In this document: piece by piece, positions 218 through 24,900 of the stretch
How positions within the stretch are numbered: position 1 is the stretch's first letter
How the letters are laid out: each line of letters opens with the position of its first letter
Virus record (IMG/VR): IMGVR_UViG_3300015171_000028
Location: 1-25,664 of that record
Source of the DNA: a virus
Strand: one strand, 5' to 3'
DNA length: 25,664 nucleotides
Program-made: the position numbers and the translations under genes
Notes under the pieces: model-generated
The model's input: only the letters and a program-made list of their open reading frames with translations
What the model was told of the DNA's origin: nothing
Database searches by the model: none

Positions 218-399
218 CAGTGCGTCCCCTCTTCCGTTTCTGTCTCTTGGGCGTCCCGCCACAGGCGCATCTGAGCTTCCAGATACTTCACCGCTTTTGG
301 GAGGTTGTCCGTCACGAGATCGAAGTCTCGGTCTACGACGCCGACGCCATATCCGCCCGCCGGGAAGCCGATAATTACAAGTCGCTTGTGCCCGTTCAT
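217..399 (-). CDS. Hypothetical 60-residue protein
   Basis: The start is the ATG at 399, which overlaps the holin stop codon in a TGATG junction. Longer upstream readings run through the holin gene in another frame and are Arg-rich, so they were not used. The protein begins MNGHKRLVIIGFPAGGYGVG. It has a short beta-strand-like N-terminus, a Gly-rich turn, an amphipathic helix (about residues 33-48) and a very acidic Glu/Thr tail. No known domain is recognised. It sits between the holin and the truncated last gene, within the coupled left-end unit. Confidence 0.65.
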   Translation of the reverse strand: MNGHKRLVIIGFPAGGYGVGVVDRDFDLVTDNLPKAVKYLEAQMRLWRDAQETETEEGTH

Positions 400-827
400 C
401 AGTGTTGCCCCGCCACGCCTTTGATTTTCTCGTAGGTGCGCAAGCCACCCATACCGAGCATCCCGAACATGAGTTGCCAGAGGGTATCGTCGAGCATCGG
501 AGGTGCCGGTACAGGGTGCCCGATGATGCCAGCCGTCCACATGCCGATAGGAGCAATGACGAACTGGTACGCGAGCGCCGCAGAGCACACCCAGCCGATA
601 GAGGGGCGCCATCCAGCAACGAACGTGCTCGCGTTACTGGCTTCCGCCTTGTTGGTCTCTAGTTGCGCCATGTTGCTGTTGATGGCAGCGAGAGCAACGG
701 CCTTGTTGATCTCGTCTTTCATCTCTTGCGACTTCGCATTGTCCGGCACGAGCCGGTCGACAACGGTATTGATCGCGCTGGATACGGGCGCGAGGAAGCT
801 AGGCATGATTGTGTCTAGTAAACCCAT
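399..827 (-). CDS. 3TM-family (GTA-type) holin
   Basis: Likely forms the lesion in the inner membrane that lets an endolysin reach peptidoglycan. It matches the pattern of the 3TM holin family first described for gene transfer agent release. There is a helical N-terminal part (residues about 12-65), the signature GWRPSIGW (72-79), hydrophobic segments at about 77-103 and 112-129, and the C-terminal RTYEKIKG (130-137). Two ATGs compete. The one at 833 overlaps the previous stop but lies directly against the AAAGGA ribosome site (834-839). The one at 827 is six bases from that site and is preferred (142 residues). No lysozyme or amidase is visible nearby, so the endolysin is probably left of the window. 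Confidence 0.85.
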   Translation of the reverse strand: MGLLDTIMPSFLAPVSSAINTVVDRLVPDNAKSQEMKDEINKAVALAAINSNMAQLETNKAEASNASTFVAGWRPSIGWVCSAALAYQFVIAPIGMWTAGIIGHPVPAPPMLDDTLWQLMFGMLGMGGLRTYEKIKGVAGQH

Positions 828-829
828 GT

Positions 830-1060
830 TCATTCCTTTCCTGTGGCGGAAGCCCTGCTGACGGCAGGCCGATCGAACTGAATGCACTTGAAGGAGAAGG
901 CGACGACCTTGTCGTCTTCTGTCTTGTTCATCTCCAGACGCGCTAGCGCCGTCTCTGAGATGAATGTTTTGCAGTCTTCCTCGCCGTTCACGTCTTGCGC
1001 TGCGTAGTTCATCTCGCCGCTTGCGAGCCATGCGATAAGCACTGCGACCATGACGTTCAT
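830..1060 (-). CDS. Small probably exported protein
   Basis: The ATG at 1060 overlaps the upstream stop (ATGA). A 76-residue product begins MNVMVAVLIAWLASGEMNYA, a short hydrophobic stretch that could be a signal peptide or membrane anchor. The remainder is hydrophilic with two cysteines (about residues 30 and 53) that could form a disulphide in the periplasm. No lipobox Cys follows the hydrophobic segment, so it is not a typical Rz1-type lipoprotein. Sitting directly upstream of the holin, it may belong to the lysis module, for instance as a periplasmic accessory protein. That role is inferred from position alone. Confidence 0.65.
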   Translation of the reverse strand: MNVMVAVLIAWLASGEMNYAAQDVNGEEDCKTFISETALARLEMNKTEDDKVVAFSFKCIQFDRPAVSRASATGKE

Positions 1061-1443
1061 TGGTGTATCCCGTGCCTGATGGTTGTGTGATCCACGCCCG
1101 CCACTCTGCCGATGCCGGAGAGTGACGCGCCTTCTTTGTGCAGCCCTTTCCACACGCGCCATCGCACCTGTGATCCGGCGCGGTTACGTGGTGAGAGAGC
1201 CCGTTCCAGTGGGACGCCAGCCGCTACGGCTTCGCTCTCTAGGAGCGAGCGATACCGCGAGGGGGAAATGGTCTTGGCGTTGTATTTGACGGGCAGGTTT
1301 AGCTTATAGGCGCGCTGATAAACGGCGTTCACCGTGCGGCCTAGCAGGCGCGCGGCTTCTCTGCCTGTTGCGGTACACCACACGCCGCGAAGAGCTGCAT
1401 CCTCGACTGGCGTCCAAGGCTGAAACTTCGTGGTGGAGTTCAT
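1057..1443 (-). CDS. DNA-binding protein: SANT/Myb-like plus DnaA-domain-IV-like
   Basis: A 128-residue basic protein with two DNA-binding-type segments. Residues about 9-50 have the SANT/Myb-like pattern: PWTPVEDAALR, then AARLLGRTVNAVYQRAYKLNL. Residues about 93-126 (RWRVWKGLHKEG, then SLSGIGRVAGVDHTTIRHGI) resemble the C-terminal domain IV of DnaA, whose signature is I-G-x3-G-x-D/K-HTTV-x-H. No AAA+ ATPase domain is present, so this is not an initiator ATPase. It most likely binds DNA as a regulator of late or lysis genes, or recognises a DnaA-box-like site. Start and stop overlap both neighbours by four bases. Confidence 0.8.
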   Translation of the reverse strand: MNSTTKFQPWTPVEDAALRGVWCTATGREAARLLGRTVNAVYQRAYKLNLPVKYNAKTISPSRYRSLLESEAVAAGVPLERALSPRNRAGSQVRWRVWKGLHKEGASLSGIGRVAGVDHTTIRHGIHQ

Positions 1444-1859
1444 TTACGCACTCCCCCGCCGGTCTCTGCGTCGATCTCGCGCTGAAGGTTGGCGAGTGCG
1501 CGCCATGCGACTTTCGTGCTGTGGCGAACGCCGTCAGTGTCGCGCGTGCCCGCGTCTATCAGATGCCGCAGAAGCGCATCTTTTTCGTCGGTGCTTTTCT
1601 CTTTCGCCCAGTGAAGAACTTCGCCGGGATTGTGCTGCTCGTTGCCGATGCGGGAGAGGATCGCCACCTCGATCAGCGCGTCGGGGAAGTAGTTCACGAC
1701 GCCAGAGAAGACAGGCGCGGCTTTGCGGGCCTTCGCGTCGCCGATGCGGTCCTCGCCTATACGATCACCGCTAGGCTTCGTGCCTTTACACGAGCAAACA
1801 AACGTCGGGTTTAGAAGGTGGTCGCAATCGTTCGTATGAAACTCTCCGCCGTGTCTCAT
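1440..1859 (-). CDS. DUF5664-type protein (dATP/dGTP diphosphohydrolase N-terminal-like)
   Basis: A 139-residue protein whose middle and end match what I know of the DUF5664 family, common in phages and named for the N-terminal region of a dATP/dGTP diphosphohydrolase. Recognisable blocks are FSGVVNYFPDALIEVA (51-66), GNEQHNPGEVLHWA (72-85), DALLRHLIDAG (94-104) and DTDGVRHSTKVAWRALANLQ (107-126), rich in His, Asp and Glu. A Cys/His cluster at residues 8-24 (H8, C12, C22, C24) could bind metal and looks like an add-on. An enzyme acting on nucleotides is possible, but the reaction is unproven. Coupled by ATGA to both neighbours. Confidence 0.8.
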   Translation of the reverse strand: MRHGGEFHTNDCDHLLNPTFVCSCKGTKPSGDRIGEDRIGDAKARKAAPVFSGVVNYFPDALIEVAILSRIGNEQHNPGEVLHWAKEKSTDEKDALLRHLIDAGTRDTDGVRHSTKVAWRALANLQREIDAETGGGVRK

Positions 1860-2110
1860 TTGTAGATTTTCCTATTCAAGTGCATCGCCGCCAGCGCGCC
1901 GCATCCAGCGCAGAAGCCATTCGTGACCCCGAGGGCGATAGAGTTGGTTTTGACTGCCAGTAGAACTATGGCGACTTCGCAGACGCCCATCCCCAGCGAC
2001 AACGGCATGACGAGCGCGTAACGCCCCGTCACGACGTTGATCTGCTGGAGGGCTTTCAGGGCGATGTAAACGAACGCCATCGCACCTGAAACTGCGAACG
2101 ACCAAAGCAT
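1856..2110 (-). CDS. Small multi-span membrane protein
   Basis: The ATG at 2110 shares its first base with the preceding stop (TGATG) and has a G-run that could serve as ribosome site just upstream. The 84-residue protein starts MLWSFAVSGAMAFVYIALKA and has three hydrophobic stretches (about 2-20, 32-53, 57-76). It has a polar N(Q/N)VVTGRY loop, a CxxC-like pair (C67, C70) and a basic tail. Its size and topology would suit a holin or antiholin. It also resembles small membrane proteins of unknown role seen in other tailed phages. With the 3TM holin two genes downstream, a role in lysis timing is possible but not shown. Confidence 0.7.
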   Translation of the reverse strand: MLWSFAVSGAMAFVYIALKALQQINVVTGRYALVMPLSLGMGVCEVAIVLLAVKTNSIALGVTNGFCAGCGALAAMHLNRKIYK

Positions 2111-3415: not shown

Positions 3416-3649
3416 CTAGGCGAATAATTTACGGATGTAGTCGCCGAAAGCCGTCCAGAGGCCAGCTGCACCGACCAAGCAGCTTCCGAAAATAGTTAAC
3501 GCCCTGCCGTGGGCGGCTTTTGCGGCAGTTTCGGCCATAATGTGATTGCTGACGACTAGCAGGTTGGCTGCCATAGCCGTTGTCGACACCATCACCATGT
3601 TCAGCTTGGTCTCGACAACGGCTAGGCGTTCGTGTATGTCGGTTTCCAT
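3416..3649 (-). CDS. XhlA-like small membrane protein
   Basis: A 77-residue protein with an N-terminal amphipathic or coiled-coil segment (METDIHERLAVVETKLNMV, residues 1-19), a helical linker, one membrane segment (about 50-68) and a short basic tail (YIRKLFA). This layout matches XhlA/haemolysin-type phage proteins that assist host lysis, though the sequence match is only by pattern. It stands after the ejection genes, 54 bases from the nearest one, and just before the left-hand promoter. The start codon is ATG at 3649 with only a weak ribosome site. Alternatives are a tail-tip or ejection-related membrane protein. Confidence 0.7.
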   Translation of the reverse strand: METDIHERLAVVETKLNMVMVSTTAMAANLLVVSNHIMAETAAKAAHGRALTIFGSCLVGAAGLWTAFGDYIRKLFA

Positions 3650-19673: not shown

Positions 19674-21829
19674 ACGTTACCCACGCCCTTTTCGGCGCTG
19701 AGTTTGGCCTGCTGCGCGTTGAGCTTCATGGCTTCGTTTGCCTTGAACGCTTCAATCTTCATGTCAAACGCAGCCTTCATCTGCTCCATGCGAGCGTCGT
19801 GCTCGAACTCCATCAGTTCGAGTTTTTGCTTGTGCGCGAACTCGTCCTGCATGGCTTGGTGCTTCGCGGCGGCCTTGGACTGTTCGAGCTGCTGCGTGAT
19901 GGCGAGCTTCTGTTGGCCCTGCTGCTGGTCGGCTTGCATCTCTTGCTGCGCAAGCTGCTGGCTGTGCGCCTGCTCTGCCTGCGTCGCTTGGGCCTTGGCT
20001 TGCGCCTCGACCATCGCGGGGTTCGGCGGGGGCGGCGCATTCGGGTTCGGAGGCGCGGGCTTCATAAAGAAGGGGTCGACAGACGGCACACCGGCGAGAC
20101 GAATGATGCGGTCCATCGTGTTGTAGATATTCTGGTAGGCGACGAGCGGGCCATTCGGGTTGCCCTGCTGCATAAGGACTTCCTTCTGCACGCCGAGCAT
20201 CTGCATGAAGAAGCCGATTAGCTGTTGCTTGCCGGCGCCAGAGATCGGGAACGTCACTTTGAGGTGGCGGCGCTTCTTCCACTCGCGGGGGTTTATGGTC
20301 TCCCACTTGCCGTTAAGCTGAACGACGTTCTTTTCTTCGCCGAACTCTTGCAGCATCTCATGGACGCCGCGAAACATATCCACGATCAAGGTCTCGGCGA
20401 TTACTCGCGTCATCAGCTTGATACGCATCTCGGCCGCATCCATGATGCGCGTAATGCCGGTGGCGGTGTGGTTAAGGCTATCGCCATCGAGGCCCTGGTT
20501 ATACCGAGATACGCCGGTGCGGTTCTCCCGAACTTCGTTCATGTGCTCGATCAGCGGGAGCGTCCAATGCCCGATGGGCTGGGTCTCTAGCTGGTTCAAA
20601 CCGCCGGGCATCTTCGTGCGTACAATGCCGCCGACGCGGTTATTTAGAAGGTCGTCGATCGTGTTTTCGGTCGCGTGGGTCTCGGCGACTTCGGTGCGTT
20701 GGTTGTTCGCGAAATAGGCGTTGTTCAGTGTCGCGCGAAGGAGCGCCGTCTTGATCTGTTGTACGTCGAGCACCAGGTCAGCCAGCGCACGACCGAAGAT
20801 ACGGTGCGGCATTATGATCGGCGTGCCGGTCGCCATCGGCCAGCTTGTGACTTCCTCGATGCCGAGGATTTCGTAGTTGCTGACTGTGGTAATTTTGTAC
20901 CGGCGTGGAATTTCGTCTTTCTCTAGGGGGAGCCGGATGTAGTGCTCGACCACTTCGATAAGACGCATCTCCTTGTTGATGTCGTCCGTGCTTTGAAGAT
21001 TGTCTTGGTTGTCCTGAACAGTCTGCCGTGCGTTGGCTTCGCTGTTGTCGCTCATTACAATCGCGGACGGGGCTTTCATAATGATCTCTTTCTTTTTGGG
21101 AAAGAGTTCGATCACGTCAGCTTGCGGCTTGCGGCTGGTATGCGCCCAATATGGGAGCTTCTGCGTCTCCCGAGAGTTCTTGGAAATCAGAACTTCTTCG
21201 GGGGGCATCGCGTAAACGCGCGGCACCTTTATCTTTTTGACGGTCTCCGCAACGCAGTTATAGAATTTGGCGGGCTGGCCGGTCAGAGGGTCGGTGTCGG
21301 TGTACTCTTGCACGTCGCGAAGGGTGACTTCTTCGTCTGCCGTCATCAGCGCGTAGCTGTCGGCGGGCAGACCTTCGTAAGTCTCGTGCTGGCGGTCCTC
21401 TTCGTGCTCCATCGCCCACTTGGCGAAACCATTCTTCTGGAGCAGGCTATCTTTGATGATCGAGTAGAGGATCAGGAACCCGTTGTTCTCTTCGTAGATC
21501 ACATGGTTGACGTAGTCGGTCTCTTGGCGCGCGGCAGCTTCGTCGCCCGGCCCCATCGGCTTGAACTCGCAAAGGTTCTCGCCGGATGTGAGTGCGTCTA
21601 GGATGATAGGCAGAACGCCTTCGACAACGTCTTGGACTGACGTGTCAGTGGCGGAACTCTCGCCGTCGTTCGCGGGCATGTCCCGCATTTCACCGTTGTA
21701 ATATTCGTAATTCTTTATGCGCTGTTCGGATAGGTCGCTGGACTGCACGCAGCCGAGAGCATTCACGCGCTCCGCTTCGAGGATTTGTTTTAGGCGTTCG
21801 TCGCCAAGGTCGTTAACAATGGTCCTCAT
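19670..21829 (-). CDS. Portal protein
   Basis: A 719-residue protein of the podophage portal type. Early blocks are RIKNYEYYNGEMRDMP (37-52), VVEGVLPIILDAL (68-80) and ETDYVNHVIYEENNGFLILY (103-122), then KDSLLQKNGFAKW. A central domain includes SWPMATGTPIIMPHRIFG and GLDGDSLNHTATGI, hallmarks of portals that form the 12-subunit DNA channel. The last ~130 residues are a Gln/Ala-rich coiled coil (QAKAQATQAEQAHSQQLAQQ and onwards), the barrel or crown region, longer than in many relatives. It follows large terminase by an ATGA overlap, the usual order. Confidence 0.9.
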   Translation of the reverse strand: MRTIVNDLGDERLKQILEAERVNALGCVQSSDLSEQRIKNYEYYNGEMRDMPANDGESSATDTSVQDVVEGVLPIILDALTSGENLCEFKPMGPGDEAAARQETDYVNHVIYEENNGFLILYSIIKDSLLQKNGFAKWAMEHEEDRQHETYEGLPADSYALMTADEEVTLRDVQEYTDTDPLTGQPAKFYNCVAETVKKIKVPRVYAMPPEEVLISKNSRETQKLPYWAHTSRKPQADVIELFPKKKEIIMKAPSAIVMSDNSEANARQTVQDNQDNLQSTDDINKEMRLIEVVEHYIRLPLEKDEIPRRYKITTVSNYEILGIEEVTSWPMATGTPIIMPHRIFGRALADLVLDVQQIKTALLRATLNNAYFANNQRTEVAETHATENTIDDLLNNRVGGIVRTKMPGGLNQLETQPIGHWTLPLIEHMNEVRENRTGVSRYNQGLDGDSLNHTATGITRIMDAAEMRIKLMTRVIAETLIVDMFRGVHEMLQEFGEEKNVVQLNGKWETINPREWKKRRHLKVTFPISGAGKQQLIGFFMQMLGVQKEVLMQQGNPNGPLVAYQNIYNTMDRIIRLAGVPSVDPFFMKPAPPNPNAPPPPNPAMVEAQAKAQATQAEQAHSQQLAQQEMQADQQQGQQKLAITQQLEQSKAAAKHQAMQDEFAHKQKLELMEFEHDARMEQMKAAFDMKIEAFKANEAMKLNAQQAKLSAEKGVGNV

Positions 21830-23127
21830 GCGAGGGCGAACTTCCTGTACTTCAGAGGGCGGTTGAACCCGGTAGCGGGTCGGCGACCATCAGCGACGCA
21901 GCCGTAGCGAAATGCGTCCGCCGCGTGGCTCGTCCAATCGTGAAGGGGGTAGTCTTTGAACATTTTCAGTTTGTCGTCATAGGCGCGGCGGTATTGGCTG
22001 AGGGCCTTCACGCCGGCTGCACACTTGACGTTGTCGAACCAGAAGAGCGGTAGGATCATGCGGACGGATTGAATGCCGTCATCGGGCTTGATCTTGGGCG
22101 CGACCTCCATTTTGAGGCCGAGCGCAGCCAACATCTCTAGCCGAGTTTTGCCAGTCCCGAGTTCACGGTTCGTAAGGTCGAACGGCCCCACATGACGGGA
22201 ATAGGCGTAAGGCTTATTAATGATAGCGCGAGCGTAATACTCAAGACCTTGACCAGACGCTTCGAGATAATCAACAGCGTGCCATTCGTTGTTAACTCGC
22301 TGAATAAACCAGATTGCGGTGCTGTCTCCGATGCCCAAATCCCACCACGTTTCGACGGGGACAGCCGGGTTGTACGGGACATTGGTAAGCCGCTTTTCTT
22401 TCTCGATTGCTTCAAACAAATCGCCGTAGTAGGCGCCGCGCATGGCGGCCTCGAAGGAGCAGTAATACTCCTGTCGGATCATGTCCTCGTCCATACCCGT
22501 CTCGCGCTCTTCCTGAATTTGGTCAGGAGTTACGACGCCGGTCTGGTCGACACCGAGGATTTGAGCGAACCAACTGCCGTCTTTTTCTTGCTGCCGTTTA
22601 GCCATCTGATAAAGGTCGTACAGATGGTTCTTACCGCGGGGTGTTGACGGAAATATTTCCCAGCCGCCATTTTCCCGTAGGATGGGGCGTAAGAAATCGC
22701 GAGCAGCAGGGTTTGCAATTGCGTACTCTGAATAGACGACACCGACAGGGTTGGTGCCGACGAGGCTGTTGTAGTTGTCGCTGCCGACTAGCTGCCAGAT
22801 TGAGCCGCACTTCAGCTCGATAGTCATGGTCTGCTTGTCGACGGCCTTGCGCAGCTCTTCGGGCCACACTTGGTCTATGATGCGCCGGCCTTCGCGGTCG
22901 ATACCGTTCCACACGGCCTTACGCGCTTGCTCGGCCTCTGGCAGCATGTGCCAGTACACGCCTTTGCGCTGGTGCGCTGCGACCGCCGTGAAGTTCAGGG
23001 CGACGCTGTCTTTGCCGGAGCGCCGATGCCATACCGGAACGGCATGTCTGCCGCCGCGTTCGAGATAGTCCCAGAGGGGACGCTGGTATGGTCGGGGCCT
23101 CCACTTATTCGGGAGGAGTAAGGGCAT
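21826..23127 (-). CDS. Terminase large subunit
   Basis: ATPase and nuclease motor of DNA packaging, 433 residues. ATPase domain: PRPYQRPLW (11-19), Walker A-like HRRSGKDS (34-41), Walker B region GVVYSE (129-134) with E134 as likely catalytic glutamate, and the coupling motif PSTPRGKN (160-167). Nuclease domain: WWDLGIGD (261-268) with D263 and D268, and DWTSHAADAFRYG (397-409) with D404, the acidic residues expected to hold metal. All key motifs appear intact. The ATG at 23127 directly follows an in-frame TGA (23128-23130) and has no strong ribosome site, so it likely depends on coupling to upstream translation. Confidence 0.93.
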   Translation of the reverse strand: MPLLLPNKWRPRPYQRPLWDYLERGGRHAVPVWHRRSGKDSVALNFTAVAAHQRKGVYWHMLPEAEQARKAVWNGIDREGRRIIDQVWPEELRKAVDKQTMTIELKCGSIWQLVGSDNYNSLVGTNPVGVVYSEYAIANPAARDFLRPILRENGGWEIFPSTPRGKNHLYDLYQMAKRQQEKDGSWFAQILGVDQTGVVTPDQIQEERETGMDEDMIRQEYYCSFEAAMRGAYYGDLFEAIEKEKRLTNVPYNPAVPVETWWDLGIGDSTAIWFIQRVNNEWHAVDYLEASGQGLEYYARAIINKPYAYSRHVGPFDLTNRELGTGKTRLEMLAALGLKMEVAPKIKPDDGIQSVRMILPLFWFDNVKCAAGVKALSQYRRAYDDKLKMFKDYPLHDWTSHAADAFRYGCVADGRRPATGFNRPLKYRKFALA

Positions 23128-23205: not shown

Positions 23206-23357
23206 AGCCACACCGCCCCGATCACGAGGCCGGAGACGAACGCAATCGGGAGGAACACCCACTGGTGCAGGCTAACCCACATCTCAGCGGACTTCGCGTC
23301 GGTGCGGGCTTTGTTCAGTTCGGCTTCGAGGCTCTTGATTGCGCTGGAGACGGTCAT
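23202..23357 (-). CDS. 51-residue membrane protein between the terminase genes
   Basis: ATG 23357 overlaps the small-terminase stop (ATGA). The protein has an amphipathic helix (about 3-25, AIKSLEAELNKARTDAKSAE), then one hydrophobic segment (about 32-50, ending GLVIGAVWL) at its very C-terminus. This is a tail-anchored topology. It is shorter than a normal inner-membrane spanin. T7 places its spanin genes between the two terminase genes, so the position is reminiscent, but the orientation (coil first, anchor last) differs from an i-spanin. An XhlA-like or lysis accessory role is possible. Confidence 0.65.
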   Translation of the reverse strand: MTVSSAIKSLEAELNKARTDAKSAEMWVSLHQWVFLPIAFVSGLVIGAVWL

Positions 23358-23755
23358 TGGTGCTCCTGGTCGTTGAAGCGAAGGATGGCGATGCTTAGCC
23401 CGCCCTCTTTGCTCATCTCTATGTCTGTGGCTGGATTACCGAAGCCCCACTTCAGAAGATCGTTCGCTGCTTTGCTGGCGACTTCGGGGTCTTCGCTGTC
23501 CAAGTTCTTCGAGAGCACTTCGATCGCCCGTTCGGCGAAGTCCGCTGCTCGTTTCCGCATGGCGCGCTTAAGGGCGGTGCGGGTAATCTCTAATTCGTCC
23601 TGCTTGATCGGCGGCAGGACTTCTTGAAGGGGCGCGGGGGCAGGTAGAGCGGGTCTGCTGTTGTGGTGCTCTACTTGCCCGCGCATTGCTTCTTCGGCGG
23701 CTAGTCTGCGGCGCTCTGCTTCTTTGCGGGCGCGCTTCTTGGGGCTACCTGCCAT
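23354..23755 (-). CDS. Terminase small subunit-like protein
   Basis: A 133-residue protein with a Lys/Arg-rich N-terminus (1-20), a Pro-rich linker (34-50), then helices (about 53-103). The block DPEVASKAANDLLKWGFGNP (89-108) is typical of small proteins directly upstream of large terminase in many phages. The C-terminus has GGLSIAILRF (118-127), often the part that contacts the large subunit. It would recognise packaging-start DNA as a ring. No textbook HTH is visible, so identity rests on position and pattern. The ATG shares a base with the upstream TAA. Confidence 0.65.
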   Translation of the reverse strand: MAGSPKKRARKEAERRRLAAEEAMRGQVEHHNSRPALPAPAPLQEVLPPIKQDELEITRTALKRAMRKRAADFAERAIEVLSKNLDSEDPEVASKAANDLLKWGFGNPATDIEMSKEGGLSIAILRFNDQEHQ

Positions 23756-24099
23756 TACGCGGCGGGCACGACCGGGTCTACGTGCGGGTCTGACGGAACG
23801 CTAGACGCGGCTTCCAGTGCCGTCGCCATAGCAACGAGCTGGTCGGCAACGCCCTGTAGGTCTGCTGGGTCATCGAGAGGGTGCGACGGCTTGTTGGCGA
23901 TGATCTCGTCTGCCAGGGCCTTCAGCGAAGCGACTGCGTCATTGACGGCGTGGGCCATTGCGGCCATGCCGATCTTGATGTGGTCGAGTTCAACGGTCAT
24001 CAGGGCAACCCTTTGTTCGAGGCCATAGACGATATACGCAAGTGCGCAATTGAGAGACGCCGGTTGGCGGCACCGCTTCGGCCGCTCCCACCAGGTCAA
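23755..24099 (-). CDS. Coiled-coil hypothetical protein
   Basis: The open frame starts at TTG 24099, overlapping the previous stop (TTGA), giving 114 residues. Heptad-like hydrophobic spacing continues without break from about residue 16 (LNCALAYIVYGLEQRVAL) through MTVELDHIKIG to about residue 65, which favours the longer start. An ATG at 24000 with AAAGGG upstream would give 81 residues and is the main alternative. A second helical region runs about 77-97, followed by a Pro/Val-rich tail. No family is recognised. It precedes the small terminase gene and may be a packaging accessory. Confidence 0.55.
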   Translation of the reverse strand: MTWWERPKRCRQPASLNCALAYIVYGLEQRVALMTVELDHIKIGMAAMAHAVNDAVASLKALADEIIANKPSHPLDDPADLQGVADQLVAMATALEAASSVPSDPHVDPVVPAA

Positions 24100-24407
24100 T
24101 GGGTTGTCGTTTCGACACCAGCGGCCTTTTCAGCGCGCCTCTGTTCAACGTAGGCCCAAAACTTCCCTAGGGTCTGCGACTGCTGCGGGAACCAACTATC
24201 TGGGCCGTATTCCTGAAGATGGGCAATTCCGTGGGCGTGCATCTCGCTGGCGTTCTCGATCGTGCTGAACGCCCCAGTAGCGAGGCCCTGTAGGGCGACA
24301 CCGTAGGGCACCCGCATAATCTCACCGGTGACGGCGGTCTTCCCGCCTGCGGAGATCGGGCACGCACACATGGCGTTAACCCAGAGGGTCGGCACCATGA
24401 GGTTCAT
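24096..24407 (-). CDS. Hypothetical 103-residue protein
   Basis: The ATG at 24407 overlaps the stop of the 26-residue gene (ATGA). The protein has a moderately hydrophobic start with C14 and C16 (MCACP), a mixed central part (GGKTAVTGEIMRVPYGVALQ), then a helical, charged C-terminal half (about 50-95). No known domain is recognised. It lies in the chain of small genes before the packaging genes and is probably an accessory protein of unknown role. Confidence 0.6.
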   Translation of the reverse strand: MNLMVPTLWVNAMCACPISAGGKTAVTGEIMRVPYGVALQGLATGAFSTIENASEMHAHGIAHLQEYGPDSWFPQQSQTLGKFWAYVEQRRAEKAAGVETTTH

Positions 24408-24484
24408 TTCAGGCGCTCGTCTATGTCGAGGACCGCGAACACGGCGAAGCCGGCTAAGAGCAGGAAGAACGATAAGGGGATCAC
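24404..24484 (-). CDS. 26-residue membrane peptide
   Basis: A GTG at 24484 overlaps the stop of the 33-residue gene (GTGA) and gives a 26-residue peptide: one hydrophobic helix (about 3-19, SFFLLLAGFAVFAV) and a charged end (DIDERLK). Its stop overlaps the next ATG (ATGA). A GGGAG site lies upstream. A longer reading in the same frame is Arg-rich and overlaps the 93- and 33-residue genes, so it is unlikely. Short length makes the call tentative, but the double coupling favours translation. Confidence 0.5.
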   Translation of the reverse strand: MIPLSFFLLLAGFAVFAVLDIDERLK

Positions 24485-24582
24485 CAGTGCCGCTCCCACA
24501 GCCAATCGACTATCTTGATCCCGATGAACCAACCGATGAAGGAACCAACGGCAAACGCGAGCCAGTCTACGAATACGGTCAT
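24481..24582 (-). CDS. 33-residue glycine-zipper membrane peptide
   Basis: ATG 24582 overlaps the stop of the 93-residue gene (ATGA). The peptide has one membrane helix (about 7-25) with G13, G17 and G21 spaced as GxxxGxxxG (GSFIGWFIG), a packing motif for helix oligomers. It has five tryptophans, three of them in a Trp-rich C-terminus (DWLWERHW). Function is unknown. The layout recalls small membrane-active phage peptides that form pores or block superinfection. Confidence 0.6.
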   Translation of the reverse strand: MTVFVDWLAFAVGSFIGWFIGIKIVDWLWERHW

Positions 24583-24860
24583 AATTCAAATACCCGCTCG
24601 GCTTCCTTGCGGGCATAGAGCTTACGTCTGTTGATCTCGATACGAGTGCGTTCGACTTCTTGGCTGTATTCTGCGGCTAGTTTCTTGCTGCGTTCGAAGG
24701 TGTATTGCTGTTCGTAGTACTCCAAGCGCCCGTCGAGCTGCTTGGCGTCCATTTTGGTCAGGTCAGATTGGGTGACTGCGTCGGGTAGGAATTTGCCGCC
24801 CTTCAGGGCGTTGTTCACTTCAGCGTCGAATGTGGGTACGTCGGCGTGTTGCTGCTTCAT
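24579..24860 (-). CDS. Hypothetical 93-residue helical protein
   Basis: The ATG at 24860 is the first codon behind the promoter at 24869-24896, apparently without a ribosome site. The protein begins MKQQHADVPTFDAEVNNALK. After a KGGKFLPDAVTQSDL turn it has a long charged coiled coil (about 38-92) rich in Glu, Arg and Lys (RLEYYEQQYTFERSKKLAAE and onwards). No family recognised. As first gene of a chain running to the terminase genes, it could be an adaptor or regulator. Its stop overlaps the 33-residue gene start. Confidence 0.65.
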   Translation of the reverse strand: MKQQHADVPTFDAEVNNALKGGKFLPDAVTQSDLTKMDAKQLDGRLEYYEQQYTFERSKKLAAEYSQEVERTRIEINRRKLYARKEAERVFEL

Positions 24861-24868
24861 CTAAGGAC

Positions 24869-24896
24869 AACATAACATATTCAGTGGGTGTGTCAA
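24869..24896 (-). promoter_or_regulatory. Sigma70-like promoter, possibly giving leaderless mRNA
   Basis: On the minus strand TTGACA (24891-24896) is followed after 16 bases by TATGTT (24869-24874), with TGT ahead as an extended -10 feature. Only eight bases separate the -10 from the ATG at 24860, so transcription would start at or within two bases of the start codon. It would drive the small-gene chain and, by readthrough, the terminase, head and tail genes. Confidence 0.65.
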
Positions 24897-24900
24897 CACC
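24887..24900. repeat. Inverted repeat over the -35 box
   Basis: GGTGT (24887-24891) and ACACC (24896-24900) are exact inverted arms around a 4-base centre. They overlap TTGACA (24891-24896), as a repressor site would. The heptamer GTGGGTG sits at 24884-24890. Confidence 0.45.

Follow-up and report, generated by a model that had tools for sequence, protein, structure and literature searches.

Two very short ORFs of 33 and 26 codons lie upstream of the terminase genes of the virus record analysed here, and are joined to each other and to both neighbouring genes by 4-nt stop-start overlaps. We interpret positions 24,582 to 24,404, tentatively, as two genuine single-span inner-membrane microproteins that would be co-translated, form a bundle and serve an accessory task directed at the host membrane, and would not be the core holin. 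The window (the whole stretch of DNA analysed) is a virus record of 25,664 bases, probably a fragment. All its recognised genes are on the minus strand, as are the two micro-ORFs, and encode the terminase, portal and major head protein, virion and tail proteins, and a holin.

Arrangement of the micro-ORFs in the packaging operon

The translations of the 33-aa and 26-aa ORFs are MTVFVDWLAFAVGSFIGWFIGIKIVDWLWERHW and MIPLSFFLLLAGFAVFAVLDIDERLK, respectively. Each peptide has one hydrophobic stretch; the maximal 17-residue hydropathy was 1.86 for the 33-mer and 2.46 for the 26-mer. The genes are co-directed and share a 4-nt overlap at all three joints (ATGA, GTGA and ATGA, Table 1), which is the layout predicted for a translationally coupled pair. 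A frameshifted fusion of the two ORFs was also considered and is not favoured, because a slippery sequence was not seen by eye at the GTGA overlap. The preliminary description had proposed two coupled membrane-like micropeptides beside the packaging genes, and the overlaps, read directly, together with the gene-like codon-frame scores (see below) confirm this. It had also placed both genes below normal gene-calling cutoffs, which is correct for the 26-aa gene (81 nt) and incorrect for the 33-aa gene (102 nt with its stop codon), the default minimum gene length of Prodigal being 90 nt. Genes of 26–40 codons are easily missed by phage annotation.

The pair is preceded by a 93-aa gene and followed by a 103-aa gene (LMVPT family). 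The structure model of the former is all helix with a pLDDT of 77, and that of the latter weakly resembles DUF7210 proteins over ∼40 residues in a fold search (E 0.1 or worse). Neither family gave a significant Pfam, PHROG or fold match. Single-sequence searches with the two genes found no relatives and alignment searches found nothing beyond three phage records (L002, L003 and L006); the 93-aa helical family and the LMVPT family are thus seen here in four phages only.

A promoter-like site upstream of the 93-aa gene is the probable start of the packaging operon. In each of the four phages (window, L002, L003 and L006) the TTGACA element precedes the start codon of the 93-aa gene by 30–32 nt, a spacing that suggests a leaderless or nearly leaderless mRNA. 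Given the positions of TTGACA and TATGTT, the microproteins are probably encoded by the second and third genes of one operon, with an mRNA that would begin at about the first start codon. A near-palindrome, TAGGTGTTGACACCTA, surrounds TTGACA in L002 and L006; it is partly kept in the window and differs in L003, and it may be an operator.

Table 1. Positions of the micro-ORFs, their overlaps and other features of the window, and of the TTGACA regions in related phages (record named where it is not the window).
Feature	Position	Strand	Remarks
Promoter-like site TTGACA-16-TATGTT	24869..24896	-	Consensus scan, 10/12 matches; ends 8 nt before ATG of 93-aa gene
TTGACA region, window	24858-24900	-	
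TTGACA region, L002	3430-3473		
TTGACA region, L006	106-150		
TTGACA region, L003	about 3560-3604		
93-aa gene, first of operon, predicted helical	24579..24860	-	Homologues in L002, L003, L006; codon score +0.52
ATGA overlap, 93-aa TGA stop / 33-aa ATG start	24579..24582	-	Sequence
33-aa single-helix membrane-like microprotein	24481..24582	-	ORF; AxxxGxxxGxxxG and Trp-rich tail
GGGAG, Shine-Dalgarno-like	24493..24497	-	Read by eye; 8 nt before GTG of 26-aa gene
GTGA overlap, 33-aa TGA stop / 26-aa GTG start	24481..24484	-	Sequence
26-aa single-helix membrane-like microprotein, GTG start	24404..24484	-	Sequence
ATGA overlap, 26-aa TGA stop / 103-aa ATG start	24404..24407	-	Sequence
103-aa gene (LMVPT family)	24096..24407	-	Homologues in L002, L003, L006; codon score +0.51
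Small terminase gene (probable)	23354..23755	-	Directly before large terminase region; homologous-looking ORFs at same place in L002, L003, L004, L006
51-aa ORF, C-terminal hydrophobic helix	23202..23357	-	ATGA-coupled to preceding small terminase gene; codon score +0.71
Large terminase gene	21826..23127	-	phrog_2472, E 1.4e-49; phrog_2 (terminase large subunit), E 2e-22
Second holin-like gene	1856-2110	-	Weak match (phrog_7045)
Holin of the GTA_holin_3TM kind	399-833	-	PF11351, phrog_3427; ∼23.6 kb from micro-ORF pair; start at 833 placed from ATGA overlap with preceding ORF

Coding evidence for the micro-ORFs

Codon usage was scored with a log-odds model trained on the 13 large ORFs of the window, for which the true frames gave 0.55±0.24 bits per codon and the wrong frames about −0.7 (95th percentile of the wrong frames, −0.14 to −0.19). 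The 33-mer and the 26-mer scored +0.65 and +0.69 bits per codon, respectively, and the other two frames were strongly negative. A purely synonymous-codon test pointed in the same direction and is weak at such length (p values of 0.11 and 0.05). The frame of a single 70-aa protein (24616-24404) was rejected: its codon score was −0.66 over the 33-mer stretch, so that it is no gene there.

In dinucleotide shuffles with both ATGA ends fixed, the gap between the flanking genes was tiled by ORFs in 4.9%, and an all-hydrophobic tiling was obtained in 4 of 20,000 shuffles. ATGA-coupled tiny ORFs in other related loci were hydrophobic in 17 of 185 cases (9%) in the sense orientation versus 11 of 153 (7%) in antisense, and a general enrichment of coupled hydrophobic ORFs in the terminase lineage was therefore rejected. 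Because the shares are similar on both strands, coupling and hydrophobicity alone do not prove a gene; the coding case stands on the codon signature, the tiling and the comparison with relatives, and on these grounds the two ORFs are probably genuine genes.

Database searches returned no counterpart of the peptides. Neither matched any Pfam or PHROG model (E 0.1 and 10), tblastn of the 33-mer against phage records gave no homologue, and a degenerate DNA pattern of the 26-mer had no hit in viral contigs. A search of nine related records with both peptides, run without a positive control, was empty as well, which for that reason shows little. No homologue of either peptide occurs among the four phages that bear the flanking genes.

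The variable junction in related phages

The search with the large terminase yielded few close records and many that are distant; its relatives in genomes belong mostly to Alphaproteobacteria. Homologues of the 93-aa and 103-aa genes were present in three records only. The large terminases of these phages are 82–84% (L002 and L003) and 75% (L006) identical to that of the window. In L002 and L003 the 93-aa and 103-aa homologues abut via ATGA with nothing between them. In L006 the junction holds two other ORFs, of 40 and 39 codons, which also encode hydrophobic peptides and overlap each other and their neighbours by ATGA throughout. The junction, empty in two relatives and occupied by a different coupled pair in a third, is thus a variable slot in the packaging operon.

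The L006 pair and the window pair are no more similar than hydropathy-matched shuffles. The flanking genes are just 35–43% identical, and fast divergence of one shared pair is therefore possible. An all-hydrophobic tiling of the L006 gap was obtained in 1 of 20,000 shuffles; the codon scores of the L006 ORFs were lower (+0.14 and +0.42, with a model trained on one 442-codon ORF). According to the preliminary description, frameshifts or stop codons in both frames of related phages would speak against the genes. In the relatives compared we found clean absence (L002 and L003) or a different pair (L006), and no frameshifted remnants, which answers this point in part. The 33-mer resembled a 37-aa peptide of L002 (3013-3126) at p 0.0014 against hydropathy-matched shuffles; as one of 45 comparisons, this similarity is only suggestive.

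Relatives differ more generally in what lies upstream of the terminases. In a close terminase relative (L004), a Tad2-like gene at 1-273, with a Thoeris anti-defence 2-like domain (PF11195, E 2.6e-21), ends directly before the small terminase gene. A passage in PMC12043709 describes Tad2 proteins as phage sponges that blunt host immunity. A junction that is empty in two relatives and holds unrelated coupled hydrophobic pairs in two phages is a clear place to test for functional cargo, and suggests a rule for further searches, namely to look for inserts, tiled exactly through stop-start overlaps, that separate genes adjoining in relatives. In distant relatives, a single hydrophobic ORF of 28–31 aa was observed just upstream of the large terminase (L021 1449-1544, L022 3867-3962 and L076 3435-3521); it is missing from most close relatives of L021 and L022.

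Glycine zipper, holin resemblance and possible functions

The 33-mer carries G13, G17 and G21 as GxxxGxxxG, extended to A9 (AxxxGxxxGxxxG), and Trp residues at positions 7, 18, 27, 29 and 33, so that the glycine zipper and Trp-rich tail of the preliminary description are indeed present. In permutations of the 33-mer, GxxxGxxxG occurred in 0.48% (0.8% within residues 7–29), for a motif that was picked post hoc. A degenerate DNA pattern for GxFxGWFxG was compared with viral contigs. Among the matches listed, most were ORFs of ∼135–150 aa with N-termini like MKEIWNWIQ..AIGGFLGWFLGG, and 9 of the 10 ORFs scanned among them were phage holins of PF05105 (Phage_holin_4_1) at E 4e-42 or better; the spacing with Phe and Trp is thus a holin-like first-helix motif. 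The 33-mer shares with these holins the spaced GxFxGWFxG in a hydrophobic helix, with Trp and small residues ahead of it, and the first-helix motif GGFxGWFxGG has its counterpart in GSFIGWFIG, a likeness on which the search itself was built. The holins differ in having ∼135–150 aa and several membrane helices, against one helix in each of the 33- and 26-aa peptides. At E 10 the PF05105 profile matched neither the 33-mer, the 26-mer nor their fusion, and the control proteins matched at E 4e-42 or better. Given the missing profile match and the selection by motif, the resemblance supports the view that the 33-mer could pack like a holin helix, and not that it belongs to the family.

These data bear on the proposal of a small pore or lysis regulator made in the preliminary description. 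The zipper motif is real, and hits of the DNA pattern are mostly members of a holin family; the proposal is not upheld as the leading reading, for lack of a Pfam or PHROG match, and with a separate holin in the window and the pair absent or replaced in close relatives. In its most specific form, which is the strongest rival to our reading and which we nevertheless consider rather unlikely, the 33-mer would form pores in the manner of a minimal pinholin, with the 26-mer as partner or antiholin, so that the pair would amount to a two-helix hairpin split in two that times lysis beside the main holin. Apart from the recovery of PF05105 holins by the motif, it is supported by the pinholin S21 of phage 21, also a small membrane protein with GxxxG helix packing, in which both helices have GxxxG motifs thought to aid pinhole formation, and by the use of two distinct holin-like proteins in some phages (PMC13056207). 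S21, however, has both helices in a single chain, is made from a dual start and belongs to a lysis cassette, with a SAR endolysin as partner of such pinholins, whereas the packaging operon of the window encodes two separate chains of one helix each, and a three-helix holin lies elsewhere; an endolysin was not recognised among the scanned genes of this fragment record. The motif-selected resemblance without a PF05105 match argues against this rival, as do the holin already present at a distance of ∼23.6 kb, which makes a core lysis role of the pair less likely, the weak second holin-like gene, and the lack of the pair in the closest relatives (L002 and L003), which would not be expected of a needed lysis gene.

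The next rival is a translation relay, in which the ORFs are translated, the peptides do little, and ribosomes are still carried from the 93-aa to the 103-aa gene although a small insertion has split these formerly abutting genes. The ATGA junction of the flanks in L002 and L003, the coupling kept through the inserted ORFs in the window and L006, and the complete turnover of sequence are all consistent with it. A relay needs neither hydrophobic peptides nor a phage codon signature, yet both gaps yield two hydrophobic peptides, and we regard this explanation as improbable. Chance ORFs within a short non-coding insert are very improbable. In their favour, ORFs of any kind tile the gap exactly in about 5% of shuffles, coupled hydrophobic mini-ORFs turn up just as often in antisense, and homologues are lacking; against them, both ORFs have gene-like codon-frame scores and the arrangement recurs at the same junction in a second phage (L006). 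Least probable is a role as tiny type I membrane toxins, used on the host late in infection. TisB and HokB are tiny single-helix membrane peptides that form pores (PMC8309996), and the window peptides, compared by size and hydropathy only, have a similar length and a single hydrophobic helix; stop-start overlaps tie them into a packaging operon, however, the usual toxin layout is not in evidence, and a shallow search identified no antitoxin RNA.

Most likely, the pair consists of accessory peptides that change fast and are directed at the host membrane. Passages in PMC6728339 and PMC10666635 state that translation is coupled by 4-nt overlaps, and that genes joined in this way often encode subunits of heteromeric complexes. 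Ribosomes that end the 93-aa gene would re-initiate at each overlapping start, and both peptides would be made together in similar amounts. Each may insert as a single helix, and the glycine face of the 33-mer may allow tight packing, against further copies of itself or against the 26-mer, into a small helix bundle; the pair is encoded in a variable slot between two conserved genes. Candidate tasks are superinfection exclusion (named in the preliminary description, and presumably within this accessory class), counter-defence, and modulation of a host membrane complex as the putative target. The accessory task is favoured over core lysis because of the turnover of the slot, the counter-defence cargo in the operon of a relative and the separate holin, and it suits a pair that is absent or replaced in close relatives better. 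Against it stand the lack of a peptide homologue, the lower codon scores in L006, and the hydrophobicity of coupled tiny ORFs, which is not enriched; moreover, the Tad2-like gene, seen in one relative only (L004), has its place in the operon farther downstream than that of the micro-ORF junction. It is unlikely, in our estimate, that phages of this terminase lineage share a two-peptide membrane device, a rapidly replaced, co-translated pair of single-helix peptides at one junction of the packaging operon whose bundle acts on the host membrane, with the architecture kept and the sequence not.

Known accessory proteins offer partial parallels. SieA of phage P22 is much larger than the 33- and 26-aa peptides. 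Like other superinfection-exclusion or moron membrane proteins, it is an accessory phage product that acts at the host membrane (PMC10883804); it differs in being prophage-expressed, and the likeness is one of gene type. Tad2-like proteins are similar in that an accessory counter-defence gene lies in the corresponding region ahead of the terminases in a close relative (L004), but are soluble nucleotide sponges of unrelated sequence, and the comparison bears on the neighbourhood only.

The probable small terminase ORF had no significant match to Pfam or PHROG families. The 51-aa ORF that follows it, ahead of the large terminase gene, is the third small ORF of membrane-like character, with GLVIG in its hydrophobic C-terminus; a different ORF of 55–72 aa occupies this position in relatives. 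A further ORF, of 25 aa, lies between the 51-aa ORF and the large terminase gene and was judged non-coding (codon score −0.23). At 1440-1859 (minus strand) the window encodes a dATP/dGTP diphosphohydrolase N-terminal family domain (PF18909, E 2.5e-8), which we take to belong to nucleotide metabolism and to be related to phages with altered DNA bases.
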